Part shown: piece by piece, positions 2,633 through 63,355 of the stretch
Numbering within the stretch: the stretch's first letter is position 1
Layout: each line of letters begins with the position of its first letter
Assembly (NCBI GenBank): GCA_944548615.1
Contig: OX155976.1
Coordinates: 8,851,476-8,915,475 of the forward strand
From: Micropterix aruncella
Taxonomy: Eukaryota; Arthropoda; Insecta; Lepidoptera; Micropterigidae
Reading direction: 5' to 3'
DNA length: 64,000 nt
Program-made: the position numbers and the translations under genes
Notes under the pieces: generated by a model
The model's database searches: none
What the model saw: only the letters and a program-made list of their open reading frames with translations
Told to the model about the DNA's origin: nothing

Positions 2633-2794
2633 TTCATAAATAAATACAAACGGAGCTGCCATGGAATTCACCGACCGGAGTCGGGCCCATCATAATACTA
2701 TTTTTTTTACACTTCTGGGGGGTGAGCAGTGGATTCCGGACTTACGAACCGGCTGTGGTAGGTTTAGGACAGCTGTCTTGCCACATGTGAGCGT

Positions 2795-3234
2795 TCACCT
2801 TACCACCCATTCACTCCCTCTTCGAAGCCGTAGAATTTGAGATGCGCAAATCGCAGTTTTAGATAATTTTTCAAAGAAAGAGTTGATTATTTTTCTGGAA
2901 AGGCCAAGATCTTTAAAGAGGTGAAATAGAGATTTAGCTGGCAGGCCACGAGCGCCAACTTCCACCGCGTGAAGGTGAACAGTGAAGCCGTTCCGGGTTA
3001 CGGCATTTGCAAGATCATGGTATTTATTTAATTTGTACTCGTGGTCTTTTGGGATATTTGATTCCCATGGAACAGTTAATTCTACGATAAGAGCCACCTT
3101 CCGAGATAGAGAGTAAAGAGTTATATCTGGACGGAGGGCTGTGCATCCGAGACTTTCAGGGAATTTATACTGCTTAGAGACCGAATCAACCTCCAGAATC
3201 CAATCTGTAGCTTTCTCGATTATTGAGAAAGGTT
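2795..3234 (-). pseudogene. C-terminal endonuclease-like domain of a non-LTR element, fragment
   Basis: On the minus strand a frame runs from about 3234 to a TGA at 2795. It contains RPDITLYSLSRKVALIVELT, then a PWE motif, NKYHDLANAV and EVGARG. The order 'RPDI..., ELTVPWE..., KY..L..., EVGxRG' is one I associate with a domain found downstream of reverse transcriptases in R2/R4-like and related LINEs, with a PD-(D/E)XK-like look (D of RPDI, E of ELT, E of EVG). The GTG at 3097 is not a real start, since the frame continues upstream for about 45 codons before a stop. No reverse transcriptase precedes it, so it is a lone fragment. The family call is by memory and moderate. Confidence 0.55.
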
Positions 3235-3501
3235 ATTAATACATACCGGTTATTCCGAGTTCAATTTGTAGTTTTATAACTTTCCAAAATGTTTGTTTGG
3301 AATAAAAATGGTAAGAACCAAAAACGGCTGTTTAAAAATCGGTAATATTTTGTGGAGTGCAATAGGTAATTAAACACATTCTATAATTTACTTCGCTAAT
3401 TAATTATTCCAAATATTTCTTTTCGTTACTAGGCCTATCGGATCTATTCCTGACGGCTATGCAGGAGAAGAACGTCAAATGATAACCTGTCAAAAAATTA
3501 A

Positions 3502-3744
3502 TGTCAACACGCAACACGCACCCGTGGTAGCTCCCTTTTATGCGTACCCCGAATACGACTGGCAAAAGTACAGAAAAGCTACTTGTACCTTAGCATTAAA
3601 TTCTATAATCTACTCCCTACAAAATTTAAACAGCTGGAGGACATAAAATTTAAAAAACACATCAAGGAGATGCTGATAGGCCACCCTTTCTATAATTTGG
3701 CCGAATTTGAGGGCCACGATTTTTCAAATATTGTGCCCATTTAA
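3502..3744 (+). pseudogene. LINE reverse transcriptase C-terminus, truncated
   Basis: An open frame of about 80 codons ends at TAA 3742-3744. It reads SSLLCVPRIRLAKVQKSYLY and continues to a C-terminus ending FSNIVPI. The same protein end, with a frameshift, is on the minus strand at 46361-46710. This region is typical of the part after the reverse transcriptase fingers/palm in CR1/Jockey-like LINEs. Upstream of 3502 the frame is broken. Confidence 0.65.
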
Positions 3745-4112
3745 ATTACTTAAAAAAGTAGAGCCTTATTGTCTGATTATTTTATATGGTCTTATATCTG
3801 TACTTTTAGTTGAAAATGCATAACGTAGATTTAATTTGATTATTTAACATTTTACTGACAATTTGAATATTACGATAAATAATTTTACTACGTATCTTTT
3901 CGAATCACTAACTACTTCAAATATTAAGCTTCTATTTTGATTATTTATATTTATAGTTTGACAATCTAGTAGTTAATTCTTGACTAACTATGTATGTTCA
4001 GTAAAGAGTAGTAGCGAAACTTACTACATAACCCAATTATTTTGACACGTCCAAGAGCGGTCTTTAGCCGTCAATTGAACACGACGAAAATGTAATGTAA
4101 TGTAATGTAACA
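3745..4112 (+). mobile_element. 3' UTR and (TGTAA)n tail of the LINE fragment at 3502
   Basis: The UTR matches, in reverse, 46007-46360. It ends in a short pentamer microsatellite (TGTAATGTAATGTAATGTAA, about 4090-4110), as expected for a LINE that uses a short repeat instead of poly(A). Confidence 0.65.
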
Positions 4113-4145
4113 CGGCGGTTTATATTAAAGACGCTGCTTTCTCTT

Positions 4146-4325
4146 TATAATAAGAGAGCAAGGGGTAGCGGCACGTACCCTATGATACTCGGAGGACAAA
4201 ACGATTCTAACAATACGAGAAACTTTTAAATCGGTAGAAGCGTTTAGAAATTATGGTGGATAAAGAAACTGAAAACAATAGATTAATCCTGAACACATAA
4301 CACTTCTTTTGGGCAGTCATGCAAA
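4146..4325 (-). mobile_element. MITE of the 'CTAAACGCTGGAACC' family, partial reverse copy
   Basis: Minus-strand match to the left half of the family: the GACTGCCCAAAA start near 4325, the TTCTAAACGCTT core and TTAGAATCGTTTTGTCCTCC, ending near the GAGTATCATAGGGTAC motif. It lies head to head with the copy at 4462, separated by ~135 bases that include a run of 12 G (about 4427-4438). Confidence 0.5.
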
Positions 4326-4461
4326 AAGAGTGGGCTGAAGACAATGCTGTTGTTTGTCTTAAACCGCAGGTTACCGATTCCGGCAATAGATATAGAATTA
4401 TTTATCTACAACCTGGTGCTTTCTGGGGGGGGGGGGGGGTTATCTTCAGCCGCAAAAAATA

Positions 4462-4790
4462 CGATTCATTTGTACACGATTGCCCAAAATATGAGTGGCA
4501 TGTGTTTAGGACTCATGTATGTATGTTTTCCGATTCTTTATTCCACCATAAATTCTAAACGCTGAAACCGGTTTAGAAGTGAGTGGTATTGTTAGAATTG
4601 TTATGTCCTCCCGAGTATCACAGACTACCTGAAGTTCTCAAATGTCAAATAAATAATCATCTAAAGGTCCAAATGTCTATAAATTGGGATAAATATATCG
4701 TGTTTATTATCAAATGAAAAGTCTGGTGGAGTATATTTCGGAAATATATATGTATCTATACGGATAAATACACAAATCACAAATATTTCA
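4462..4790 (+). mobile_element. MITE of the 'CTAAACGCTGGAACC' family, forward copy
   Basis: Forward copy running from ACGATTGCCCAAAATATGAG through TTCTAAACGCTGAAACCGG, the TTAGAATTGTTATGTCCTCC block and ATAAATATATCGTGTTTA to AAATACACAAATCAC. It is inverted relative to 2346-2632, so these two form a ~300-base inverted pair around 1.8 kb of LINE fragments. The ORFs crossing it (4319-4565) have no recognisable content. Confidence 0.6.
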
Positions 4791-5861
4791 TGAAAGAAAA
4801 CCTTTTTATTACTTGAGCACCGAGGGCAATCGACTAAAGTGCAGCGGCGGCGCAGCGGTGCGTGATCGTTTCATGATACCTGCCGCAGGGCGCAGAACGA
4901 ACACTATTCTCTTACAAAACTTGCTTTTCAGCGGTATTTTTTGTTGTAATAATTCTAAATACTTGTACATTGTGCAATAATTGTTTGTACGGAGTCGTTT
5001 TTCTTAATTTTTGAAATTATTGTTCTTGTTACAAGAATCGTATTACGGTTTACAAACAAAGACGACGACAAACAAGAAATTCATTAATGCATAGATAAAG
5101 TAGATAAAAAACTACTATTCATTAAACGTCAATCGCAATCAGCAGTTGCCGGATGACTTCACATTTTTTTTCAAAGATGACGAAACTTCTATATAGCTGT
5201 AATGAGTATGAAGTATAATAGGAGACCCAATGTAGAAATGATACCAATTGCTTGAGGATCTTAAGTATCTACTTACTGAAGGGAGTACTTAAGTGAAGGC
5301 TATGAACGGCTATTTTGAGGGTGGTACTTATGTGTCACACGAGCGAGGTTCGATCGATCTGTGAATACTCCAGTTAGAGTTCGTTTAGGAAATTTTGCCA
5401 TATATCCTTCTAGCCGTGTTCGGCCATAGCGACTGCATTGTAGATTCTAGTGACTTCTTTAGTCTTCTCAGAGTCCATTGTTCGGAAGCAGTCAAGTGCG
5501 CAGGCTATATTATAGTGCACAGGTGGGCGCGCGACCACGAGTGCACTCTCTCTTCCTCCCTCTTCTGAACCCGATGGAACGGAGACCGTTACAACCAGAG
5601 AAAAGTTTGGATGCAGATAAAATAAAATAAATTAATTAATCGCCAACACAGCAATGGCGGTCATTGTTAAATTTGTACTCAATATTGCAGAGCTATTTTT
5701 TTCGGATTTAGTTCGTTTTTCACACTGTCATTTATGAAATTGGTTATGGCTTGTGGTGATGTTTGAGGTTTTTCTGAAATGTTACTATGAGCGGGTTTAT
5801 TACCGTACTACAATCTCTTCCAACCAACCCTACTATGGGGAGCAAAGGGGTCGTTAAACAG
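4791..5861. other. Unassigned; possible short coding remnant on the minus strand at 5400-5575
   Basis: Most of this region is unrecognised. On the minus strand 5575-5400 a frame of about 55 codons with coding-like composition reads ALDCFRTMDSEKTKEVTRIY then NAVAMAEHG before a TAG. I have the impression of having met this peptide in lepidopteran repeats but cannot name the family. A GC-rich patch lies at 4835-4910. Confidence 0.35.
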
Positions 5862-5945
5862 CCCTGAACAATGCTGTGGCATACCAAAGAGATTTGCAAA
5901 CCGAATGCTCAAAAAAAATATGTTTAAAACAATCACGTGTCTTAT
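5862..5945 (+). pseudogene. Fragment of LINE ORF2 linker between RNase H and zinc knuckle
   Basis: The sequence CCTGAACAATGCTGTGGCAT and what follows parallels 38071-38150 of the near-intact LINE, at roughly three quarters identity by eye. It encodes CCGVPKRFANRMLK where the intact element has CCGVPKSLANLMLK. It is an old, diverged relative of that LINE; the overlapping minus-strand ORF is a shadow. Confidence 0.5.
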
Positions 5946-6194
5946 TAATAAAACATGTCATTCCTAAACAATGTAATATTTTAAAGTAAATAACATTCTG
6001 TATTCTTTTTTTTTGTTGGGGAACGCGTTTAACAAAAATCACGATGCATTTGAAAAATCACGCATGCTATTAACGACCGCTATTCTTTTCTCGGCCGGGC
6101 CAATATCGCAATACTTGGAAGAGCAGTGGCGAAATCATTTTATTATGATCGTTATCGCCGTGGACAGACAATGAAAAAAGAACTGCTCTTTAGC

Positions 6195-7032
6195 TAGCGC
6201 ATGTCATAATGTTATATGACGACACTGGCCTTCAGGTTATAGCAATCAGACATCACACGCTATTCGTTCGGTTCGAGCGTCTTAAACTGTCATAACGTAC
6301 GGTAACAAAGCAGTTTTATATATTAGCATTGATTATATATGGTACTAGTTATATATGATTATATTGTAGCATTGATTAGCATTTGTAATATATTGTATTA
6401 ACATATTTTGATATAATAGACAAAATTTTGCCAAAAAAAACAGACTCCATTTTTTTTAAATAAGTGAAGCAGCCATGTCATGGTGATACTTAGAACGAGC
6501 TATCATAATTGAATGCGTATACAAAATTTTGTGTCTGGTGCTGTTGACCGTTGAGGAGTTCCCTGGTTGGAAGCCAACCCTGGATGCCGCAGTCCTGTCT
6601 TGGTGAAACTAAATAGCGCATGTCATAATGTTATATGACGACACTGGCCTTCAGGTTATAGCAATCAGACATCACACGCTATTCGTTCGGTTCGAGCGTC
6701 TTAAACTGTCATAACGTACGGTAACAAAGCAGTTTTATATATTAGCATTGATTATATATGGTACTAGTTATATATGATTATATTGTAGCATTGATTAGCA
6801 TTTGTAATATATTGTATTAACATATTTTGATATAATAGACAAAATTTTGCCAAAAAAAACAGACTCCATTTTTTTTAAATAAGTGAAGCAGCCATGTCAT
6901 GGTGATACTTAGAACGAGCTATCATAATTGAATGCGTATACAAAATTTTGTGTCTGGTGCTGTTGACCGTTGAGGAGTTCCCTGGTTGGAAGCCAACCCT
7001 GGATGCCGCAGTCCTGTCTTGGTGAAACTAAA
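6195..7032. repeat. Perfect tandem duplication of a 419-bp unit
   Basis: 6195-6613 is repeated as 6614-7032; following both copies line by line I found no difference. Each unit starts TAGCGCATGTCATAATG and ends CTTGGTGAAACTAAA. The second half of the unit carries one copy of the ~119-bp minisatellite that continues to 7240. Either a very recent duplication or an assembly artefact. Confidence 0.9.
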
Positions 7033-7250
7033 AACGGGCTGTCGTAAATGAATGCATATACAAAATTTCGTGTCTGTGCTGTTGAGTCTTGATGAGTCCC
7101 CTCGTCGGGAGCCAACCCTGGTTGCATCAGCCATTTCACGATGAAACTTAGAACGGGCTACTATAATTGAATGAGTATACAAAATTTCGTGTCTGTGCTG
7201 TTGACCGTTGAGGAGTCCCCTAGTCCGGAGGCAACCGAGGATGTATAATC
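6903..7250 (+). repeat. ~119-bp minisatellite, three adjoining units
   Basis: The landmark TGAATGCGTATACAAAATTT (with variants) occurs near 6929, 7048 and 7168, spacing 119-120. Each unit also has TGTCTGTGCTGTTGACCGTT and a CAACCCTGGATGC block. A further unit is present in the first 419-bp copy (6484-6610), a single diverged unit at 38612-38745, and reverse units at 16847-17005. Confidence 0.75.
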
Positions 7251-7495
7251 AGGTCATGCTTACCATTAAAAAATACCACTGTCATCGGAAACAACATGTA
7301 AATTTTCAACTTGATATGATAATATTTGAGGAGTTCCATCAAATTCCTTTTGGATCCCATCATCAGAACAGGATTTTGATAAAATGGGACCAATCTGAAA
7401 GTATATCCTTTCAAATAAAGAAAGAGTATTAAAAATTGGTTCATAGCAAACGTTAAAAAAAAGATACAACCGAATTGATAACCTTCTCCTTTTTT
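7251..7495 (+). mobile_element. Dispersed element paired with the 119-bp minisatellite
   Basis: This part (AAAATACCACTGTCATCGGA, then GGATCCCATCATCAGAACAG, then AAAGTATATCCTTTCAAATA) matches the reverse strand of 16590-16830, where it is again next to the minisatellite. So minisatellite plus this block form one mobile unit, about 550 bases long. It ends near AACCTTCTCCTTTTTTAGAA, which resembles a common lepidopteran repeat end. No coding capacity is convincing, although short frames overlap. Confidence 0.55.
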
Positions 7496-8032
7496 AGAAG
7501 TTGGTTAAAATTAAGATATTAATGTTATCTCGTGGCTCTTTCCCATCCGAATCGAAGCATGAATCGGTTGACGAAAGAAAGATGCCAGCCACGCTGTGAT
7601 GGTGGACATCCACGCTGTGATAGTGGACCTTAATCAGTCTTTCCTATCAGGTCCAGAGGTGGGGTTGATGTCTGGTCACCGCAAGACTTTTCCGGCATTT
7701 AGACACCCCTCTCCCCCCCTCCCAGCCTCCCCACCAACCCATCCTCTCGCTGCGCGCCAATTCGTAGTATATTTGATGACCCTCCGGTTGACGCTGGGGA
7801 GGAATTGTGATGGAGACATTGATGAAAGCCAATTTTCGTTTTTATACTGAGGTATAATTCAAGTAAAATTGTTGTAGTTCTTATTATTGTAGTATTCGCT
7901 TTTTTTTCTAAGGTGTAATTTAAGTGAAATGTGTTTTTTTTAAACTTAAATATATTTTGCTACAGACAATATATTTTGATACAGACAAAATATATTTTGC
8001 TCTTAATCAAACCCTTACTAAAATGTATTTTT
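7496..8032. other. No recognised feature
   Basis: Contains a local duplication (CACGCTGTGAT.GTGGAC twice, 7590-7632) and a pyrimidine-rich patch (7705-7745). The short ORFs here have no family resemblance. Confidence 0.35.
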
Positions 8033-8345
8033 TTACACGACTGCCCAACAAAAAGGACTGTGGTCTGTTCAGGGTTCATCTATATATGTTTTCCGTTTCT
8101 TTATTCCACCATGACTTCTAAACGCTGGAACCGATTTAGAAATGTGGCATTGTTGTTAGAATCGTTATGTAATCTTGAGCGCCACAACTTAACTATCCAA
8201 ATATCAAGTAAATAGTTGATTAAGTCCAAATCTCCAAATGTTTATAAGTTAACATAAATATATCGTGTTAAGTGTCAAATGAAAGGCCTGATCGAGTACA
8301 TTCCGAAAATATATGTATATGCATCTATGTAGATAAATATATCTG
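8033..8345 (+). mobile_element. MITE of the 'CTAAACGCTGGAACC' family, forward copy
   Basis: Best-preserved copy: starts ACACGACTGCCCAACAAAAA, passes through CCATGACTTCTAAACGCTGG and TAGAATCGTTATGTAATC, and ends with TTCCGAAAATATATGTATAT. Aligns over its length with 4462-4790 and with the split copy at 49914-51262. Confidence 0.6.
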
Positions 8346-8811
8346 ATTTTTTTAATTCAAAATCTGGTGGTAAAGGGGTGAGGGAAAATAATAACCCACC
8401 CTGGGCGGCAATCTGTTTGTCTGCCTGTACTGCGGTATAACAACAATGATAGTGGTAAAACTGTGAAATTAATATTAGCAGTTATTATGTTAAAACTGCT
8501 CTGGCCGTTACTTGCGCAGAGGCATAGTTGAGCAACGCGAACGCAAGCGATCACGCCGCAGCGCCGCTGTTTCAGTTGCACATTTCATAACTTTACGCAT
8601 TTCAACATGAGAATAACCAGTTCAAGGAGCTCGGTTTGGCGCAAACCCACCGCCAGACACGAGCTGAGTTGACTCTACTAATAAGCGTAGACGGAGGATC
8701 TATCTCGGCGAAAGAGCGAAACGATTCGCGTCTGTAATTCCGACTTTTCAAAATTAAGTTCCTTGGCCGTAGGATACATATCGTTCCCTGTGATTGTCCC
8801 ATAGATCTAAT
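8346..8811. other. No recognised feature
   Basis: Locally GC-richer (8500-8760) but without a recognisable frame, terminal repeats or match elsewhere in the window. Confidence 0.35.
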
Positions 8812-13380: not shown

Positions 13381-14492
13381 GCCATGTAGGAAGTCTCGTC
13401 TCATCCTGCCTACTGCACCAACGGCTGCATCTCTTCGCCGAACATGTATTCCTAATACCTCAATCCCGAATCATGACAACCATAGGATTGCTTGTAGTAA
13501 ATTTGATAGGTATTCGCTAGATGTATGTTTTCAATTATAGAGGGGGCACTCATTTTAGTTTCGTGGAAGGGAGGGGGGGAGGGGAGATTTGAAGCATGAT
13601 GCTTAAAAAAAATAAAACAAACCTATCGTGAAACTGTTTACTAAACATACTCATACTAATGCTACCACTTCATTATAATTACACACTAAATGCGATGTAT
13701 TTGATTAAGTACTTAAGGTTACTTATTTATTATTACAGTTTAGTACAATGTTTAATAGATTTCAAATGATAATGATGAAAATAAATTGTCTATCTTAGAA
13801 CAGGCGGTAGTCTAGTTAGGGTTGACTATTGCAAATTATAGCTGTTGCGAATCTCAAAATTAATAAATCAATTTGAATTTAAATTTGAGTGAAAGTTTTA
13901 TGTTTCTCAGAAATTTTACTATACCTGGCTTTTCCAATATCTTACAAAAAAATCCGATGCACTCTCATCGCGTATACTCCAGTCGGCCTGTCATCTCCCG
14001 TACTTATATTATTCTAGAATGGACTGGAACTTTTCGTCTCGTTTCAATGACAAGTTATGGCGAAATTATTAATGTCTCATTTTTGTCTTGCGTAGACACG
14101 TTTGTTAAAGGCGTTGGAATTTGGACTTCCAACTCGAAATTATCTAAGTGGCCAGTTTTTAAATAGGACAGTTTGGAAATATGAAGGCGAGGATCGATAC
14201 ATGCTTCACAATTTGTATTGCGATAAAGTATGTTGTTATATATTCTTTTGACAATTATTTGAATTTTTATATGACTATGTATTATGTTTGATATGATCTG
14301 GCCAGACACGACCGTGGCCTGAGTGCCTAGCAAGGCGGGCTCGGTTTCACTTTATTCGGCACATTAGGAATACAAACTTTTACATATAATTTAAGCACAA
14401 TTTGGCCTGGGCACAGACAGATGTATGCCTACATTTAGAAGCATAATATAGCGGTATTTTCTGGGTTGTACATTACATTATTTTGTGCTCTT
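13381..14492. other. No recognised feature
   Basis: A purine-rich stretch lies at 13565-13590. Two overlapping frames of about 95 codons (13873-14166 plus, 14055-14333 minus) show no family resemblance, so I do not call a gene. Confidence 0.35.
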
Positions 14493-14692
14493 NNNNNNNN
14501 NNNNNNNNNNNNNNNNNNNNNNNNNNNNNNNNNNNNNNNNNNNNNNNNNNNNNNNNNNNNNNNNNNNNNNNNNNNNNNNNNNNNNNNNNNNNNNNNNNNN
14601 NNNNNNNNNNNNNNNNNNNNNNNNNNNNNNNNNNNNNNNNNNNNNNNNNNNNNNNNNNNNNNNNNNNNNNNNNNNNNNNNNNNNNNNNNNNN
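14493..14692. other. Assembly gap of 200 N
   Basis: Exactly 200 N. It removes most of a hAT transposase remnant. A round 200 suggests a placeholder and not a measured length. Confidence 0.98.
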
Positions 14693-14804
14693 CCAAGTAC
14701 CTGATGCTTATACTCAGTTGCTCTGTACCACTAGCATCTGTTTTTTCGTCGCCAAGTACAGCGTAATATTTTGCTTTTTTCACTTTTTTTATTATATTTT
14801 TCAT
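14693..14804 (-). pseudogene. hAT-type (DUF4371/ZMYM-like) transposase fragment, cut by gap
   Basis: On the minus strand the frame from 14804 into the gap reads AKYYAVLGDEKTDASGTEQL then SISIRYL. This matches the signature 'KYFSVIADETTDI..TEQLS..IRYV' of the catalytic region of hAT-related transposases that resemble ZMYM1/DUF4371 proteins; the first catalytic aspartate would be the D of GDEKTD. In full-length members this motif sits some hundreds of residues into the protein, yet here the element end (15009) is only ~200 bases upstream, so the copy is internally deleted or spliced. Confidence 0.65.
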
Positions 14805-14947
14805 AATTAGAGTATGGCAACATTCAATCAGCTGATTCTGGGTTGTTTTACTTAGATATGTAGCATTTTTTGGAGCTGTCTCTAAATTTTGAGCTGAACT
14901 AACAGATTTTTAATATACAGTTTAGTAACAAATCTGAAAGTCTTGTT

Positions 14948-16589
<1,642 letters not shown>

Positions 16590-20855: not shown

Positions 20856-21249
20856 GATTTACAATCTGGCACAGGGGGCCAAACATTACCAATTATTATT
20901 TAATGCCAAATAATCACTATTTTTGCTTGTTACCTTTGCTGATATTATCGAAGGGCTAATAGTATACGATATCGAGATATTGTTGGTGAAAAAAATCTTT
21001 GTATTAGTCTTTATACCATCAGAAATATTGCATATATTTACACGATTAGGTTCCCAGAAGTATCTACAATCTGGCACCTTACTAAATATTATTTGATGCC
21101 ATATAATCACTATTTTTGATGGTTACCTTTGCTAATATTCTCAAGGGGCTAATAGCAAACGGTTTCAAGACAATTTTTTTTAAAAATCTTTGTATTTGTC
21201 CTTATACCATCAAATAACGTTGCAAATAATCGATTAGATGGCCAGAAGC
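20856..21249 (+). repeat. ~205-bp satellite, left part (two monomers)
   Basis: The landmark ACAATCTGGC occurs at 20861 and 21066. Each monomer continues with ACAGGGGGCCAAACATTACC, TAATGCCAAATAATCACTAT, GGCTAATAGCAAACG and AATCGATTAGGTGCCCAGAA. The second monomer is broken at CCAGAAG (about 21249), where a LINE fragment begins. Confidence 0.75.
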
Positions 21250-21895
21250 ATTTTATTGATATGCTCTCTAAAAGTCAGGTGCTCGTCGTGAAGTATTCCT
21301 AGATCTCTTACACTTTTTGTAGATTTTAGTGTTGAATTGCCGATAGAGTAAGGGTAGTCTTTAATTTGCTTATTTCTAGTGAAACGAATAATTTGACATT
21401 TTTCAACATTCAGTTCCATTCTATTAGATTCACACCATTTTTTCAATTCGCAAAGATCTTTCTGTAGTGCATTGCAATCCTCAATTGTCAGTATTTCTTT
21501 GAATATTTTTAAATCATCTGCATACATTAGATGCCGACAGCGTAGACTCTTAGAGAGATCATCAATGAATATTAAAAATAGAAGTGGTCCGAGATTTGAT
21601 CCCTGAGGCACACCAGATTTAACTAAGGCAGGGATCGATGTATATCTTTTCACACGAACAATTTGTGTCCTATTTGATAGGTACGACTTCATCCATCCAA
21701 GTAGGTTACCGTGAATACCGTTATTTGCAAGTTTCATATGTAATATGTCATGATTAACTTTGTCAAACGCTTTAGCGAAGTCGGTATACACGGCATCCAC
21801 CTGGTGTTTCCTATTAAACGCGGATGAAATGTACTGGTTGTACTCCAACAGGTTAGTTTCCACCTATCGGTTTTTGGTGAATCCATGTGGTACGG
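21246..21895 (-). pseudogene. LINE reverse transcriptase domain, internal fragment
   Basis: The minus-strand frame covers the palm of a CR1/Jockey-like reverse transcriptase: HGFTKNR followed by an in-frame TAG (where serine is expected), then VDAVYTDFAKAFDKVNHDIL (first catalytic Asp), KSGVPQGSNLGPLLF, CRHLMYADDLKIF (YADD) and a thumb part ending LGILHDEHLTFREHINKM. It stops abruptly at 21246 where satellite begins, and its upstream end meets satellite at about 21895. So both ends are cut and neither a 3' UTR nor a tail is present; this is not a normal LINE insertion. Confidence 0.85.
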
Positions 21896-35179: not shown

Positions 35180-35493
35180 TCAACTACAACGGGCGAACCC
35201 GTCACCTCTGGAAGTTTTAACGATTAGTCGTTCTATCTTCCTGGAGTGAGCGCAGGGATAGCCAGGAGTGTTAGCCAGCGGGCTTACACTCACTCCCTTA
35301 CTTCCAATTGCGACCAGATTACTCCAGTCTCTCGATTGGTTACGAGTTCGAGGTCGCTTGCGCGATCCTCTCTTTACGAAGCGGTGAAACGGTGTATACC
35401 GAATCTATCGCGGACCACGGCATCCTTTGCCCGGCAGTTTACCAGGATCGGGTAGCCGATGGTCGTTTCAAAAGCAGTCGCCGTAAGGTCCGC
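35180..35493 (-). mobile_element. AB repeat, B part, truncated by LINE
   Basis: Reverse B part: from GTCAACTACAACGGGCGAAC (its outer end) through TTCTATCTTCCTGGAGTGAG, CCAGTCTCTCGATTGGTTAC and CGGTGAAACGGTGTATACCG to GTCGCCGTAAGGTCCGC, where the LINE at 35494 takes over. The frames across it are also open in other copies, but antisense to the element, and I do not call a protein. Confidence 0.75.
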
Positions 35494-38400
35494 AAAAAAA
35501 AAAATGGCATGTCAGGGATGACACTTCAATGTCTGATCACAGACAAATAACCTTTAAACTACTAAACACCGTAGACTGTCAAACCACAACTTTCAGGAAT
35601 CCTAAAGCCACCGACTGGGACGCTTACCGTACCACACTAAGGCTTAACCTTGAAACAATACAAAAAAATATAAAAACACGCGAGAGTCTAGAGTTGGCCG
35701 TGGCGGATACCACAAAAGGCATTATAAACGCCTATGAGGAAAGCTGCCCACTCAAGACAAAGACCTCCAAAAGAAAAGTTCCATGGTGGAACCCGAAGTT
35801 GGACAAACTAAGGAAGGAAACCCGGAAACTATTTAATAAGGCTAAACAAACTCTCAACTGGGAGGAATACAAAAAAGCCTTAACCGAGTAAAACAAAGAA
35901 ATTAGGAGAGCCAAAAGAGCAACATGGAAAAGCTTCTGCGAGGACATAGTGGAAACGCCTCAAGCAGCCAGAGTACATAGACTGCTCGCAAAGGACAAAC
36001 CTAACCATATTGGTCTTCTGAAAAAACCAAACGGAACCTTTACAACAAATGAAAAGGAAACTTTGGAGGAACTAATATCGACCCACTTCCCAGGTGCTGT
36101 GACAACTAGCAACGCCGCCACTGCTCCATACAGACCTCGAAACGAGGACTGGAGTAGGGCTGCTAGAATCATAAGGCCCGATCAAGTTAAATGGGCCGTA
36201 AAATCCTTTAAACCTTACAAATCATGCGGGGACGACGGAATCATGCCCGTGCTTTTGCAACAGGGTATCGACATTCTAACCCCATATCTGGTTAAAATCT
36301 TCAGAGCAAGCTATGCCTGGGGACATATACCAGAAGAATGGACCAAGGTCAAAGTGCTATTCATACCCAAGGCTGGCAGGAAGGACTACGCACTGTCAAA
36401 GTCCTTCAGGCCAATTAGCCTAACATCCTTTCTACTGAAAGCGATGGAAAAGATACTGGATAGCTATATCAGGGAAAAAATCCTAACGGTCAACCCTATC
36501 AGCTGTAACCAACACGCCTACCGCAGAGGCAAATCCACGGAAACCGCTCTGCTCTACCTAGTAGACAGAGTGGAAAAGGCGTTGGAAGACAAGCAAATCG
36601 CAGTATGCGCATTTTTAGACATTGAGGGCGCCTTCGACAAAACCCCAATTAAATCACTGGTGAAGGGACTAGAGTCAAAACAAGTTGACAACACCACAAC
36701 CAGATGGGTGAAAGCGATGCTCTCAAACTGCACGGCCAAGGTAGCTCTTCACGGAACAAACCTTGAAGTCACCACTACAAGAGGCTGCCCGCAGGGAGGC
36801 GTAGTACTCTCGCCCCTACTATGGACTCTTGCAATAGATCAACTCCTGCATAGGATGGCAGAGGCCAGGATAGACACACAGGGCTATGCTGATGACCTAG
36901 TAGTCATTGTCCGGGGCTTCTGCCAAAACACGATCTCACACATAATGCAAAAAGCGTTAACAATCGTTAGCAATTGGTGCAGAGAGAACGAATTATCGGT
37001 CAACGCCGATAAGACCGTCCTCGTGCCATTTACCAACAAACGTCAACTAGGTCGACTAAAAATGCCAATCTTAAACCACAGGCAGATTCCTTTCTCCAGG
37101 GAAGTAAAGTAACTGGGAGTCACGCTCGACCAGAGACTCACCTGGAACAGCCACCTAGATAAAACAATTCAAAAAGCTAAAAGTGCTTTGGGTATAAGCA
37201 GAAGACTGGCGGGGAAAAACTGGGGCCTTAACCCCAAGATCTCCCACTGGCTATACACTGCCATTGTGAGGCCGATAATCTCGTACGCCTCGGTGGTATG
37301 GTGCAACAAAGCCAACCAAAAAACTGTGATTACCAAACTAAACAATATCCAAAGGACGGCGTGCCTCATGACAACTGGCGCAATGTCCTCCACTCCTGGA
37401 GCAGCTCTAGATGCACTGCTGAACTTACCGCCCCTACACATTCATTTGCAACAGGTGGCGAAAGCCAGCATGTACAGGCTATCTGCCCGAGAGAAGGTAA
37501 ACTGGATCTCACAAGCACTAAGATCAGTTCTTGACTCAGTCAGTGAAAATCCAACCCTCGACATGGTATCAGACACCATGCTCCCACTCCTAAACTTTGG
37601 AAAACTTTTTACAGTGGAACTGCCGCCCAGAGACGACTGGCTAAAAAGCCAACTGCAATGGGAGGCCGGTAGCCTTAAATGGTATACTGATGGGTCCAAA
37701 TCGGGACTTGACGTAGGCTGTGGTATATATGGAGAGCGACCCAACTTCGAAAGAAGTGTAAACTTGGGAAAATACGCCTCCATATTCCAAGCGGAGGTTT
37801 ACGCCATTATTGAATGTGCGGATATCAACCTCAAAAAGGACTACGCCAACCACCGTATCTATATCCACTCGGATAGCAAAGCAGCTCTTATGGCACTAGC
37901 CTCGAATACCATTAATTCAAAGCTAGTGCAAAACTGCATATCACTACTGAATTCCCTGGGCGAAAAGAACAGGGTAATACTAAGATGGGTTCCCGGCCAT
38001 GCAGGAATCGAGGGAAATGAAAAAGCCGACGAACTTGCTAGGACGGGAGCAAAGGGAGCGTTGTGCGGCCCTGAACCTTGCTGTGGCGTACCAAAAAGCC
38101 TTGCAAACCTAATGCTCAAACAAATGTGTTTAGAACAATCCGTCAACCACTGGAACAACACGCCAGGGTTGAATCATTCCAAAGCGCTTATTAAGCCTTA
38201 CGACCGTAAGACGGCCCGTGAGGCCCTATCGCTAAATAGGAACAATCTACGTATACTGGTAAGGGCGCTCACGGGGCATTGTGGCCTGAACAAACACATG
38301 TTCAACCTCAAGCTCAAAGACACAAAAATGTGCAGGTTCTGCCAAGGGGCAGAGGAAACTCCCCAGCACCTCATGTGCGAGTGTGGCCCGCTGATGCGTA

Positions 38401-38596
38401 AAAGATACAACCACCTGGGTGGTCACTACCTCCAACCTGAGGAGGTAAAACAATCTGGCGCCAAAAGCCTGCTGCGATTCTTAAATGACACGAGGCTTAG
38501 CGCAGAACTATAGTAGGTGGCGAGCACAATAGATCAGCAATGGTCGCAGTGTTACAAGGCTCATAAAGACCTTAGAAAAGCCCCACACAACAAATA
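35494..38596 (+). mobile_element. Near-intact RNase H-bearing LINE (I/LOA/R1-group), 5'-truncated
   Basis: About 3.1 kb: an 11-A run at the left junction, ORF2 from inside the endonuclease domain to the end, a short 3' UTR and a tail AACAAATAAAAAAAATAAAA. The left flank is an AB repeat and the right flank a unit of the 119-bp minisatellite, so no target duplication can be read. Its 3' end is nearly identical to 1-361. Confidence 0.85.
35505..38513 (+). pseudogene. LINE ORF2 polyprotein: endonuclease end, reverse transcriptase, RNase H, zinc knuckle; two nonsense codons
   Basis: One frame of about 1000 codons, interrupted only by TAA at 35889-35891 and 37110-37112. It would reverse-transcribe element RNA at a nicked target. 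Order: end of the endonuclease (SMSDHRQITF); reverse transcriptase with FRPISLTSFLLKAMEK, AVCAFLDIEGAFDK (first Asp), RGCPQGGVVLSPLLW and YADD (36885-36896); RNase H with WYTDGSKSG (Asp codon 37689), FQAEVYAIIE, IHSDSKAAL and WVPGHAGIEGNEKADELA, all catalytic acids present; zinc knuckle CRFCQGAEETPQHLMCEC. Both stops replace expected tyrosines: the second sits in the conserved K-Y-LGVTLD motif. Presence of RNase H separates it from the CR1/Jockey-like pieces nearby. Exact clade is not settled. Confidence 0.9.
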
Positions 38597-52253: not shown

Positions 52254-52470
52254 CTTGGTTCTCTCGATCTGGGAGCTAATAGGCCCTTGAGGGGTTAACC
52301 ACGAAGACCCATTCTGTTCAGGGTTGGTCACACTCACGGGTCAACACCCATCCGCATGAAGTGCGACCCTGGGCATGACTCTGGACTTAGGGCAAGTTTC
52401 CCTTGGGAATCAACCTTCTGGCGCTCCTGGACGGCCTGCGCACCGTGCGGCGTAAGCCAATCGATTGTGC
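52254..52470 (+). mobile_element. AB repeat, A part of the host copy
   Basis: Forward A part, from TCTGGGAGCTAATAGGCCCT to GCCAATCGATTGTGC, directly followed by the occupied site ACTCTGACTAAC (52471-52482). Its partner B part lies 2.7 kb away at 55160-55268; everything between was inserted at the site. Confidence 0.85.
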
Positions 52471-52711
52471 ACTCTGACTAACAGTTAAGAGTTTCAAGGC
52501 GATAGGTGAGGGCAGCAAACCCCGCCCACCGCCCGGGCAGTTATAACGACGAGGGTCGTCTTGTCTGCCCAGGATGTCGTGCTACGACAACCCTGCGCGT
52601 ACCAGAAGGGTAAAACGCGCTGGGGGTGAAATAGGGTAAACCACCCCCCCCCCCGTACCGCCCCGAGAACCCATTTATTCGAAAAATAAAAGTTAAAAGA
52701 CTCTGACTAAC
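52471..52711 (-). mobile_element. R1-clade LINE, 3' UTR only, between 12-bp direct repeats
   Basis: ACTCTGACTAAC at 52471-52482 and 52700-52711 flank ~217 bases that match the 3' UTR of the R1-clade LINE at 53390 (AGTT.AGAGTTTCAAGGCGAT, CGCCCGGGCAGTTATAACGA, TACCAGAAGGGTA, CCGAGAACCCATTTATT). The 3' end is at the left, without poly(A). Extreme 5' truncation with a target duplication is what target-primed reverse transcription produces. Confidence 0.85.
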
Positions 52712-53377
52712 ATCTTGCGGTGTCAACTACAACGGGCGAGCCCGTCACCACAGGACGTTTTAACGATTAGTCGTTCTATCGCCCTGCAGTGAACGTAGAG
52801 ACTTTGGACAGTACATTCTACGTCCAGCTACGTCACAACCCGTGAGAGTCCAACGCCTTACCGCGAGTAAGCCAGGAGTAAACCCGGCGGGCTCGAGAAC
52901 TCGCGCCCTCACTTCCAATTGTGACCAGATTTCTCCGGTCTCTCGATTGGTTCCGAGTTCGAGGTCGCTTGCGCGGTCCTCTCCCTTATGAAGCGGTGAA
53001 ACGGAGTGCACCGAATCTTCGCGGACCAAGGCGTCCTTTGCCCGCCTCTTACCCGGGATCGGATGGCCAATGGTCAATTCCAGAGCAGTCGCCATAAGGT
53101 ACGCGACCACCCCCGCTCTATAGGAAACAAAACAGTTCCCAGACTCCCCCGACTGTTAGTCGGAGAGCACAACCGATTGGAGCAAACCCCGCACGGTGCG
53201 CAGACCGTCCAGGGGCGCCAGAGGTTTGATTCCCAGGGGAGACTGGTTGACCCAGTGTCCTACCCAGGCCTCGCACCCCATGCGAGGAGGCCGTCGGATG
53301 GGTGTTGACCCGTGAGTGTGACCGACCCTGTACACATGGGTCATCGTGGCCAACTCATCATGGGCCCGTTAGCCCCC
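52712..53377 (-). mobile_element. AB repeat, full-length insert in reverse orientation
   Basis: Complete B'-A' copy of about 666 bases between ACTCTGACTAAC at 52700-52711 and 53378-53389. It starts ATCTTGCGGTGTCAACTACA (B end) and ends GGGCCCGTTAGCCCCC (A end). Its own internal A/B junction (near 53155) reads CGACTGTTAGTCGGAGAGCA and is empty. Confidence 0.85.
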
Positions 53378-54440
53378 ACTCTGACTAACAGTTTAGAGTT
53401 TCAAGGCGATAGGTGAGGGCAGCAAACCCCGCCCACCGCCCGGGCAGTTATAACGACGAGGGTCGTCTTGTCTGCCCGGGATGTCGTGCTACGACAACCC
53501 TGCGCGTACCAGAAGGGTAGAACGCGCAGGGGGTGAAATAGGGTAAACCACCCCCCCCGTACCGCCCCGAGAACCCATTTATTTATAATAATAAAAGAAT
53601 TTACAAAGTAAAAATTTACAAAAATAATACTAAATTTACCATTTTCACAAAATAAAAAAATAAAATAAAACAACAAATAACAAATTTAGGGCCGGTAAGT
53701 GGGGTAGAGGACGCTCCAGAAACGATGATGGTGGAGGCGCACGGTCCGTGGGCAGGTCTCGGAGCAGCCACGGGGGGGAGGAATCCCTGGATCCTGCAAA
53801 GAACGAAACGCCCTTCGGGGCGGTAAAGAGACGGACACAAAGACGGGCACTTCGGGCTGGAAGTAGCCGCCGAATCACGCCACCAAGGAAGAGGGTACCC
53901 CTGGGGGGTATCCCGAGGCCTCATGCTTTCCCAAGAAGCCACCCAGTGCTCCACAAGCTCGCCAAACGACTGGAAGCAGCTCCTACAACTGACCAGATCC
54001 GGGTACCAAATCGGAGAGCGCCCAACGCACGCGCCCACTGCATCCATCAATTTCTCCCGTGCAGCCGCTAGAATTGGGCAAGACCAAATTACGTGTTCCG
54101 CAGTTTGGCGACCATACCCACAGGCGCATCGGGGGTCATCGGCAAGTCCAAAGTCAAATAGTTTGGCTCTGAACTCTCCGTGGCCCCCGACCAGCTGCGT
54201 GGTATGGTGGTCGAACCGCAGAAACGAATTTGCCATCCGCACTGCGACGGACGGGAAAAAGCAATGGGTGAGGCCGGTCGGGGTGAGGCGGCCCGTACCC
54301 CCGGCGTCCCATCTAGCCTGCCAGACACGCAAGGACTCCAACCGAATCAGGCGGGCAAACTCCCCAGCTCGGTGCGCCACCGGGTCGATCGACAGGCCAT
54401 GAAGGACTACCGGCTCGCCGGCGGCGGTACTCTGACTAAC
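53378..54440 (-). mobile_element. R1-clade LINE, 5'-truncated, at the same 12-bp site
   Basis: ACTCTGACTAAC at 53378-53389 and 54429-54440 flank a LINE end on the minus strand: coding 54428-53616, then 3' UTR to 53390 (ending, in sense, CGCCTTGAAACTCTAAACT) with no poly(A). Truncation at the 5' side lies within the part after RNase H. The orientation is antisense to the host AB copy, like every other insert here. Confidence 0.9.
53616..54428 (-). pseudogene. R1-clade LINE ORF2 C-terminus (zinc knuckle), 5'-truncated
   Basis: About 270 residues in one open frame. LRVWQARWDAGGTGRLTPTG, HCFFPSVAVRM, TTQLVGGHGEFRAKLFDFGL and the knuckle CACGYGRQTAEHVIWSC (C-x-C-x8-H-x4-C) are the standard order at the end of R1/TRAS/SART-type polyproteins ('LRxWQxRWDxxxxGRxTxxFFPxV...TGHGxFxxxLxRFxL...CxCG...T..HxxxxCP'). 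The ATG at 54455 is in AB sequence across the junction and is not a real start. No stop interrupts the frame, so decay is only by truncation. R1-clade elements are often site-specific, which suits the setting. Confidence 0.88.
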
Positions 54441-55147
54441 ATCTTGCGGTGTCAACTACAACGGGCGAGCCCGTCACCACAGGACGTTTTAACGATTAGT
54501 CGTTCTATCGCCCTGCAGTGAACGTAGAGACTTTGGACAGTACATTCTACGTCCAGCTACGTCAACAACCCGTGAGAGTCCAACGCCTTACCGCGAGTTA
54601 GCCAGGAGTAACCCGGCGGGCTCGAGATACTCGCGCCCTCACTTCCAATTGTGACCAGATTTCTCCGGTCTCTCGATTGGTACCGAGTTCGAGGTCGCTT
54701 GCGCGGTCCTCTCCCTTATGAAGCGGTGAAACGGAGAGCACAACCGATTGGAGCAAACCCCGCACGGTGCGCAGACCGTACAATCTTCGCGGACCAAGGC
54801 GTCCTTTGCCCGCCTCTTACCCGGGATCGGATGGCCAATGGTCAATTCCAGAGCAGTCGCCATAAGGTACGCAACCACCCCCGCTCTATAGGAAACAGTA
54901 CAGTTCCCAGACTCCCCCGACTGTTAGTCGGAGAGCACAACCGATTGGAGCAAACCCCGCACGGTGCGCAGACCGTCCAGGGGCGCCAGAGGTTTGATTC
55001 CCAGGGGAGACTGGTTGACCCAGTGTCCTACCCAGGACTCGCACCCCATGCGAGGAGGCCGTCGGATGGGTGTTGACCCGTGAGTGTGACCGACCCTGGA
55101 CACATGGGTCATCGTGGCCAACTCATCATGGGCCCGTTAGCCCCCAA
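54441..55147 (-). mobile_element. AB repeat, second full-length insert in reverse orientation
   Basis: B'-A' copy of ~707 bases between ACTCTGACTAAC at 54429-54440 and 55148-55159. Nearly identical to 52712-53377 except for a ~44-base extra piece at 54737-54780 (AGCACAACCGATTGGAGCAA and GCACGGTGCGCAGACCGT) that is a duplicate of part of its own A' region (54936-54980). Confidence 0.85.
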
Positions 55148-55268
55148 ACTCTGACTAACAGTCGGGGAGTCTGGAAGCAGTATTGTTTCCTATAGAGCGG
55201 GGGTGGTTGCGGACCTTACGGCGACTGCTCTTGAAACGACCATCGGCTACCCGATCCTGGGTGAACAG
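55148..55268 (+). mobile_element. AB repeat, start of B part of the host copy
   Basis: Site ACTCTGACTAAC (55148-55159) then AGTCGGGGAGTCTGGAAGCA to CCCGATCCTGGGTGAACAGC, the expected continuation of the A part that stopped at 52470. The remainder of B is lost where a MITE fragment begins (55275). Confidence 0.85.
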
Positions 55269-55274
55269 CGGGAC

Positions 55275-56070: not shown

Positions 56071-56283
56071 AGGGAGTTAATGGGCCCTTGCTGAGTTGGC
56101 CACGAAAACCCATTCTGTTCAGGGTTGGTCACACTCACGGGTCAACACCTATCCGACGGCCTCCACGCATGAAGTGCGAGCCTGGGTAGGACTTTGGCCT
56201 TATGGTCAGTTTCCCCTAGGAATCAATCTTCTGGCGCTCCTGGACGGTCTGCGCACCGTGCGGCGTAAGCCAATCGACTGTGC
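56069..56283 (+). mobile_element. AB repeat, A part of a second host copy
   Basis: GGGAGTTAATGGGCCCTTGC to GTAAGCCAATCGACTGTGC, ending at the site ACTCTGACTAAC (56284-56295). Its B part is 56586-57030. Confidence 0.85.
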
Positions 56284-56585
56284 ACTCTGACTAACAACAA
56301 GGGTTGTCGACTACAACGGGCGAGCCCGTCACCACAGGAATTTTTAACGGTTGTTCGTTCTATCTCCCTGGAGTGAGCGTAGAAGACTTGAGGACAAAAA
56401 CAGTCCACTATCTAGCTACGTCACAAGCCCGTAAGAGGCCAACGCCTTAACCGCGAGATAGCCAGGAATGTTACCTGGTGGGCCGACACTCACGCCCTTA
56501 CTTCCAATTGTGACCAGATTACTCCGGTCTCTCGATTGGTTATCTCGATTGGTTACTCCGGTCTCTTGTAACCACTCTGACTAAC
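56284..56585 (-). mobile_element. AB repeat, 5'-truncated reverse insert between 12-bp repeats
   Basis: ACTCTGACTAAC at 56284-56295 and 56574-56585 flank a B' piece of ~278 bases that starts with the B end (GGTTGTCGACTACAACGGGC) and breaks off after TACTCCGGTCTCTCGATTGG, where a short local duplication (CTCGATTGGTTA twice) is seen. Keeping the B end and losing the rest shows that the B end is the 3' end. Confidence 0.88.
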
Positions 56586-57030
56586 AGTCGGGGGAGTCTG
56601 GAAGCAGTACTGTTTCCTATAGAGCGTGGGTGGTTGCGGATCTTACGGCGACTGCTCTTGAAACGACCATCGGCTATCCGATCCTGGGTGAACAGCCGGG
56701 CAAAGGACGCTGTGGTCCGCGATAGATTCGGTATACACCGTTTCACCGCTTCGTAAGGGAGAGGACCGCACAAGCGACCTCGAACTCGTAACCAATCGAG
56801 AGACCGGAGTAATCTGGTCACAATTGGAAGTAAGGGCGTGAGTGCAAGCCCGCCAGGTAACACTCCTGGCTACTCGCGGTTAAGGCGTTGGCCTCTTACG
56901 GGCTTGTGACGAAGCTAGATGGTGGACTGTTATGTCCCAAGTCTTCTACGCTCACTCCAGGGAGATAGAACGACTATTCGTTAAAACTTCCTGTGGTGAT
57001 GGACTTGCTCGTTGTAGTCGACAACCCAAG
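56586..57030 (+). mobile_element. AB repeat, complete B part of the second host copy
   Basis: AGTCGGGGGAGTCTGGAAGC through GAAACGACCATCGGCTATCC, CGTTTCACCGCTTCGTAAGG and CGAGAGACCGGAGTAATCTG to GCTCGTTGTAGTCGACAACC. The best example of a whole B part (about 445 bases), so a full AB element is roughly 670 bases. Confidence 0.85.
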
Positions 57031-57040
57031 TTGCGTACAA

Positions 57041-62566: not shown

Positions 62567-62811
62567 GGCCCGGTGGCATAGTGGTTAGGTCGCCTGATCT
62601 TACATTGTAAGGTCCCTGGTTCGATTCCCGGCTGGGTTACCATTTTCCGTTGGGATCAAATTAACGGAATTGCATTTTCAATTCTGTCGATCGAATGCAA
62701 TAACAAGACACACAGTTGCACACATGTAAAACGCACACATACATATAACCCGTCATAGTAAGGTTGGTTGTAAGAGATTGTCATATGACAATAAACACGC
62801 CGCGGACGCCT
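62567..62811 (+). mobile_element. tRNA-derived SINE, forward copy
   Basis: A tRNA-like head GGCCCGGTGGCATAGTGGTT (A box 62574-62584) and a B box GGTTCGATTCC (62618-62628), the two internal RNA polymerase III promoter elements, then a body and an end GTCATATGACAATAAACACG. A second copy is at 38755-38960 (minus). The head cannot fold as a normal tRNA with certainty, so I call a SINE and not a tRNA gene. It adjoins a truncated AB repeat. Confidence 0.8.
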
Positions 62812-63128
62812 TGGTCCGCGATAAATTCGGTATACACCGTTTCACCGCTTCGTAAGGGAGAGGACCGCGCAAGCGACCTTGAACTCGGAACCAATCGAGA
62901 GTCCGGAGAAATCTGGTCAAAATTGGAAGTAAGGGCGCGAGTGTCTCGAGCCGCCGGGTATTATTCCTGGCTATCTCGCGGTAAGGAGTTGGTCTCTTAC
63001 GGGTTGTGGCGTAGCTGGACGTCGGATTGTTTTGTCCAAAGTCTTCTACGCTCACTGCAGGTCGATAGAACGACTAATCGTTAAAACGTCCTGTGGTGAC
63101 GGGCTCGCCCGTTGTAGTCGACAACTCA
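62812..63128 (+). mobile_element. AB repeat, B part, 5'-truncated
   Basis: Begins inside B (GGACGCCTTGGTCCGCGATA) and runs to its end GTAGTCGACAACTCAATAT. Directly followed by the reverse site GTTAGAGTGCAC and an A' part, so this is again a B end joined to the site, antisense to the neighbour. Confidence 0.75.
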
Positions 63129-63355
63129 ATATGTTAGAGTGCACAGTTGATTGGCTTACGCCGCACGGTGCGCAGACCGCCCAGGAGCGCCAGACGGTTG
63201 ATTCCTAGGGGAAACTGACCATTAGGCCAGAGTCCTACCCAGGCCCGCACTTCATGCGTGGAGGCCGTCGGATAGAAGTTGACCCGTGAGTGTGACGAAC
63301 CCTGAACAGAATGAGTCTTCGTGGCCAACTCAGCAAGGGCCCATTAACTCTCAAT
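63129..63355 (-). mobile_element. AB repeat, A part, reverse
   Basis: GTTAGAGTGCACAGTTGATT (site lacking four bases) through ACGCCGCACGGTGCGCAGAC and GACCCGTGAGTGTGACGAAC to CTCAGCAAGGGCCCATTAAC. Host for the B insert at 62812; the host's own B' part is not seen on the left, where a SINE lies. Confidence 0.75.

Follow-up and report, generated by a model that had tools for sequence, protein, structure and literature searches.

In a 64,000-nucleotide stretch of the genome of the lepidopteran Micropterix aruncella (contig OX155976.1, positions 8,851,476 to 8,915,475; hereafter the window), a single copy of an interspersed repeat, AB, is split by a stack of four inserts, each of which is bounded by the same 12-bp sequence. 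We propose that an R1-clade long interspersed nuclear element (LINE) and AB, a repeat resembling a short interspersed nuclear element (SINE) and dependent on that LINE, constitute one retrotransposition system whose preferred site of about 12 bp lies inside AB itself. We give this reading a probability of roughly 0.7. It draws on the structure of the stack, on the distribution of LINE and AB 3′ ends across the genome, on targets that the two families share away from the AB site, and on the domains of the LINE.

Five exact copies of the 12-mer ACTCTGACTAAC, starting at 52471, 52700, 53378, 54429 and 55148, bound the four inserts, all of which lie antisense to the host AB with their 3′ ends facing its 5′ half. 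From left to right, they are a LINE 3′ end (about the last 211 bases), a 666-nt AB, about 1 kb of LINE C-terminus and 3′ untranslated region (UTR), and a 707-nt AB. A preliminary description of the window had put forward this split, order and orientation; alignment of LINE and AB references to the window bore them out, and moved the start of the host AB to about 52271 instead of 52254. When one mismatch was allowed, a search of the window for the 12-mer returned seven matches, all exact, against 0.15 expected, and seven or more were reached in none of 100 shuffles. The two matches outside the stack, at 56284 and 56574, belong to a second host AB (56071-57033), which is split at the same base by a single antisense AB insert. 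What seems to be a further nest, with a shortened site, involves a third AB at 62804-63350. AB copies fall into two subfamilies that are about 84% identical to each other, a host type of about 673 nt (ABh) and an insert type of about 666 nt (ABi), and these names are used in the list of features:

52271 to 52470, plus strand: host AB copy 1 (ABh type), 5′ half; ABh 2-228 aligned at 52271-52485
52471 to 52482, plus strand: target 12-mer copy 1, exact match
52483 to 52699, minus strand: R1-type LINE, 3′ UTR end only, 5′ truncated; LINE 3424-3634 at 52483-52695, 96%
52700 to 52711, plus strand: target 12-mer copy 2, exact match
52712 to 53377, minus strand: AB insert 1 (ABi type, 666 nt); 99.4% to a copy on contig C1
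53378 to 53389, plus strand: target 12-mer copy 3, exact match
53390 to 54428, minus strand: R1-type LINE, C-terminus of open reading frame (ORF) 2 and 3′ UTR, 5′ truncated; LINE 2663-3634
54429 to 54440, plus strand: target 12-mer copy 4, exact match
54441 to 55147, minus strand: AB insert 2 (ABi type, internal duplication); 99.7% to a copy on contig C1
55148 to 55159, plus strand: target 12-mer copy 5, exact match
55160 to 55272, plus strand: host AB copy 1, 3′ half, truncated; ABh 214-339, 95%
56071 to 56283, plus strand: host AB copy 2, 5′ half, by alignment to ABh
56284 to 56295, plus strand: target 12-mer of host copy 2, left, exact match
56296 to 56573, minus strand: AB insert in host copy 2, host-like subfamily, 5′ truncated; ABh 429-673 at 56295-56542, 91%
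56574 to 56585, plus strand: target 12-mer of host copy 2, right, exact match
56586 to 57033, plus strand: host AB copy 2, 3′ half, by alignment to ABh
62804 to 63132, plus strand: ABi-type 3′ end joined to antisense host AB at the shortened site
63133 to 63350, minus strand: host AB copy 3, 5′ half; ABh 4-221, 94%

The larger of the two LINE pieces (53390 to 54428) is 88% identical to a 3.6-kb copy of the LINE at locus L031 and 97-98% identical to many other genomic copies.

In the species' own genome (1.08 Gb, 742 contigs), the exact 12-mer occurs 17,601 times (8,852 + 8,749), compared to 61 occurrences (33 + 28) of a reversed control. LINE 3′ ends selected by similarity of the element body lie on the site in 26 of 40 cases and elsewhere in 14. 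Twenty-four of these ends join the 12-mer (≤2 mismatches; 17 exact) directly or after one base, and two more join the site with deletions and were scored on-site by eye (L085, L088). The 40 ends come from 42 rows of 40 scored candidates, with the window's own row and C2:13723201-13723621 omitted; these candidates were the ones most like the window copy among 1,763 seen at first look, and 101 bases were fetched at each 3′ end. Two of the ends (L053 and L090) are stacked at one locus, and one that has the site about 40 bp away (L068) was scored off-site. The off-site ends L054, L063, L079 and L082 adjoin AB 5′-end sequence.

Counts that require an exact LINE or ABi 3′ end, and in which ABi variants with other 3′ ends are uncounted, gave 352 LINE ends and 1,159 ABi ends at the exact 12-mer and none of either kind at the reversed control. 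Flanks that do not begin with A were found for 399 LINE ends and 3,338 ABi ends. Among the first 100 listed for the LINE, 25 have the ABi version of the site, 18 have other AB-site variants and 57 lie elsewhere, while the first 100 listed for ABi are AB-site-like in seven cases. Extrapolation from these first 100, with one third added for off-site flanks beginning with A, which were unseen, puts about 63% of LINE ends and about 25% of ABi ends on the site. In C1:1-5.09 Mb, read directly, eight ABi ends are at the exact site compared to 14 listed with another non-A flank. Chance would place about one in 100,000 insertions there (17,601 sites, 1.08 Gb, two strands), and arithmetic from the exact counts gives an enrichment on the order of tens of thousands. 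The preference for the site is very strong but not exclusive. At the preferred site the base, the orientation and the duplication length are fixed, the base being uncertain by one with shared junction letters; the share of LINE copies found there is short of the nearly all that would mark a target-specific LINE. Of the earlier proposal that the LINE's endonuclease targets a mobile repeat, the target is supported and strict specificity is not. Unrelated sequence around most copies, which the preliminary description had named as grounds for refutation, is the rule for AB, given the ABi extrapolation and the varied flanks of ABh, and is not the rule for the LINE.

Left half-sites were classified in the window and in regions retrieved around the earliest-placed 12-mers on contig C1. 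Of 46 such half-sites, 26 are empty, 15 hold an AB 3′ end, five hold a LINE 3′ end and none holds anything else; all inserts there therefore have one orientation. One of the empty sites is an ABi copy's own site (R3302000 4840) and another has a small deletion. Because the C1 regions and the local ABi and ABh sets were chosen by the exact 12-mer, this occupancy is biased toward the site and is only indicative; the genome-wide counts of exact LINE and ABi 3′ ends are free of that selection.

LINE and AB also coincide away from the AB site. A comparison of off-site flanks from ABi (93) and the LINE (57) yielded 21 near-identical 12-mer pairs (≤2 mismatches), whereas 1000 column shuffles gave a mean of 1.4 and a maximum of 8. 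One target within another repeat, TCTAGACGGGAC and its variants, makes up 13 of the 21 pairs. LINE copies L091-L096 sit at one base of this second repeat. At C6:11.13 Mb an ABi copy occupies the same base and is flanked on either side by ATCCAGACGAGAC, a 13-bp duplication, the second copy of which is joined to a LINE 3′ end. The second-repeat site accounts for six of 100 listed ABi flanks (TCTATAGGAGAC, which is a different site, is excluded). We consider the strong evidence to be the primary site and the second-repeat site, both of which the two families use to the base; the simplest account is that the same endonuclease serves both families. AB is dispersed like a retroposon and probably uses the LINE machinery. 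The preliminary description had offered two options, that the repeat uses the same machinery or that it shares the target; the target is shared, and the shared secondary targets make common machinery probable as well. As a side note, the second-repeat target, whose occurrences (L091-L098) are spread over contigs C2, C3, C4, C5 and C6, resembles the primary site (TCT-GAC...AC).

The LINE can be read almost in full at locus L047, where a copy of about 5.9 kb, like the L031 copy, is flanked by the 12-mer within an AB host. This near-complete element (about 2650-8508) carries the 12-mer at either end. Next to it at the same site, on the side of the host's 5′ half, is a second, 5′-truncated LINE; the 12-mer bounds each of the two, so that they form a LINE-on-LINE stack. 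As in R1-clade elements, there are two ORFs, the first with CCHC zinc knuckles: ORF1 contains two CX2CX4HX4C motifs and a looser third (by eye) and has no Pfam match, and ORF2, which is split over two frames, matches RVT_1 (7.2e-34) and Exo_endo_phos_2 (2.3e-14). When the two endonuclease pieces were searched separately against solved structures only, they matched R1Bm (2EI9) at 6.6e-9 and 1.7e-9. With the first piece R1Bm was the sole endonuclease to match, and with the second it was the best-scoring endonuclease; TRAS1 was matched only by the second piece, at 0.0027. Among solved structures, then, this apurinic/apyrimidinic (AP)-type endonuclease is closest to R1 members. The earlier assignment of the LINE to the R1 clade agrees with these results, and the class rests on the R1-like endonuclease and the CCHC ORF1. 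A search for a 5′ ribozyme gave no Rfam match in L047 7800-9000.

The site in ABi reads TCTCCGACTAAC in 11 copies, TTTCCGACTAAC in one and ACTCCGACTAAC in one, and the host form is present in none of these 13 readable copies (one further copy is unreadable). Nearest-neighbor identity reaches 99.7% among 16 ABi copies, compared to at most 96.6% among 23 ABh copies, and by this measure the ABi insert copies look younger than ABh. Flanks of ABh are varied, with duplications of about 10-13 bp, such as CATAAATCTGT or CGAATATTTTA, visible by eye in several of 30 rows; one row in this flank table joins half-copies that come from separate hosts. ABh thus appears to be a dispersed repeat that spread by retroposition and was not strict about its targets. 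With a length of about 670 nt, no autonomy and variable target duplications (seen by eye, uncounted), AB has the general features of a SINE. We call it only SINE-like because searches with it gave neither a tRNA match nor an Rfam match that reached the gathering score, and Pol III (RNA polymerase III) boxes were not scanned; the only Rfam match, HOTAIR_3, is at chance level (18.4 bits against a cut-off of 80). We also considered whether the altered site makes ABi immune to insertion, and rejected this: among the first 100 non-A flanks listed for each family, TCTCCGACTAAC is still entered by the LINE (25 of 100) and by ABi (4 of 100). ABi may also land repeatedly inside AB at GTTTCCTATAGA, where about five of 100 listed ABi flanks fall (TCTATAGGAAAC and variants); judged by eye, these insertions apparently share the orientation of the host AB. 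At another locus, L042 (C1:4338500-4348400), ABi and ABh lie in tandem at about 4264-5431, each followed by TCTCTTTGAAAC, beside a sequence that appears similar to part of a 5S ribosomal RNA gene.

These observations suggest the following mechanism. The LINE endonuclease would prefer the site of about 12 bp within AB and nick the top strand of AB immediately 3′ of ACTCTGACTAA or one base further on, and both LINE and AB RNAs would be copied there by target-primed reverse transcription from that strand. Such copying would leave inserts in one orientation with the 12-mer on both sides, and each remaining 12-mer, on either side, would be open to a new insertion, so that LINE and AB copies could stack. 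A leaky preference may add to this: a site-bearing AB that lands elsewhere would scatter new landing pads, and off-site ABh copies in particular could carry intact sites to new places. The preliminary description had self-nesting create new sites. Flanking 12-mers do explain the stack in the window, where one host AB took four inserts; the inserted subfamily mostly lacks an intact site, although its altered site is also entered, and new pads would come by way of AB copies that landed off-site. It is tempting to speculate that the whole is a self-expanding target system, in which the partner seeds thousands of pads, both elements home to them and stack, and AB is recruited without 3′ UTR likeness, perhaps by read-through RNA; we see the odds of this broader picture as even.

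Several results weigh against a single system of LINE and AB. About three quarters of ABi ends (extrapolated) and 14 of 40 LINE ends are off-site. The shared flanks are concentrated, with 13 of the 21 pairs drawn from one site in one repeat family and one more (TTTTCAAC) from a single locus that holds both elements; the remaining seven pairs (five targets) exceed the null mean and not its maximum of 8, which makes further shared targets beyond the second repeat suggestive. Moreover, five of the six LINE flanks at the second repeat are nearly identical, and these five copies may represent one insertion amplified as a passenger. Finally, the 3′ ends of ABi and the LINE show no likeness, since 71 of 500 shuffles score as high, and a LINE-derived tail on AB was rejected for the lack of 3′ homology. 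Such a lack is unexpected for R1, which has been reported to recognize its own 3′ UTR, based on Drosophila hybrid elements with R1 3′ ends (PMC3414825). AB does not share the autonomous element's 3′ end, as an R1-dependent short internally deleted element (SIDE) would. The missing tRNA and accepted Rfam matches for AB weigh on this side too.

The missing likeness could mean that AB is mobilized by a different, unseen LINE, one whose 3′ end is AB-like and whose endonuclease is similar, with the window LINE only sharing the target. The varied surroundings and 10-13 bp duplications (by eye) of ABh, whose 3′ region is similar, are what a less specific partner would produce. However, the two families have in common the primary site, the second site to the base and probably others, and we met no LINE with an AB-like 3′ end, though none was systematically searched for; we regard this explanation as unlikely, without dismissing it. 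Another way to account for the 3′ ends refines the single-system reading rather than opposing it. Because inserts lie antisense in their host, transcripts of nested copies that read through into the AB flank would carry the complement of the primer strand and could pair with the nicked target, and any RNA, once landed, would be a good template. AB RNA could then serve without a LINE-like 3′ UTR, consistent with the lack of 3′ homology, but the large off-site share of ABi fits poorly with this, and we consider read-through priming unlikely. It is highly improbable that the AB site is simply a hot spot, fragile or hairpin-forming and open to any retroelement. The empty site does contain a small inverted repeat (GACT-AAC-AGTC, by eye), yet no other element occupies any of the 46 left half-sites, and a secondary target of different sequence is also common to both families. 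Even less credible, to the point of being negligible, is that the stack arose by tandem duplication or misassembly. The alternation of LINE, AB, LINE and AB does resemble a doubled unit, but the 5′ truncation points of the two LINE pieces differ, and the two ABi inserts, about 93% identical to each other, each have a closer match on a different contig (99.4% and 99.7%; 16 copies compared). The same junctions also recur hundreds of times genome-wide, and empty sites exist. We therefore disfavor a simple duplication of a LINE-plus-AB unit and retain the reading in which one LINE-based machinery probably serves both elements.

Target-specific LINEs are known mainly from multicopy targets of the host: RNA genes, telomeric repeats and microsatellites. 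In Xenopus, Tx1L, a LINE of the Tx1 clade with an AP-type endonuclease, occupies a fixed site inside another mobile element, the DNA transposon Tx1D, which is not known to be its own non-autonomous partner. Zepp of Chlorella builds self-nesting LINE arrays that, as far as we know, are not site-exact within a dispersed SINE-like repeat. The M. aruncella LINE resembles R1 (in 28S ribosomal DNA), TRAS and SART in its AP-type endonuclease, for which R1Bm is closest among solved structures, and in using a single base and a single orientation, here with LINE-in-LINE stacking at the site (L047). It also shares with R1 a duplication around the insert, the flanking 12-mers here and 14 bp in R1 (PMC3414825). 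Unlike those elements, it has its preferred target within an abundant, interspersed non-autonomous repeat instead of in ribosomal DNA, telomeric repeats or microsatellites, and 14 of the 40 copies sampled lie off-site. Non-autonomous elements that occupy the R1 site have likewise been published, namely the R2/R1 hybrid SIDEs of Drosophila (PMC3414825); these carry the R1 3′ end, whereas AB has no detectable LINE 3′ sequence and itself contains the target. Transposons are listed among known LINE targets, and target-specific LINEs of the R1 and Tx1 clades are in print (PMC4640811). In the titles and abstract openings of open-licence papers, we found no LINE whose preferred target is its own SINE or other non-autonomous partner. 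Target-specific R1-clade LINEs are thus known, and what would be new here, as a variant of the known, is a preferred target that is the LINE's own non-autonomous partner.

A favored site that travels inside the non-autonomous partner would couple target supply and parasite load. Since one genome contains on-site and off-site copies, two variants of the site, a second target common to both families and long copies of the LINE, the system also offers a natural setting for studying how enzymes of the R1 type select their template and target. For targeted insertion, an endonuclease that naturally prefers a new 12-bp site could be of practical interest.

The window has some further features. Another LINE with an RVT_1 domain lies at 35487-38513 (plus strand), its frame broken by two stop codons, and a fragment of a different reverse transcriptase lies at 21234-21863 (minus strand; RVT_1, 2.3e-23). 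A run of N falls inside two open frames at 14439-14909, and a long TA-rich simple repeat at 14976-16133 produces spurious open frames.

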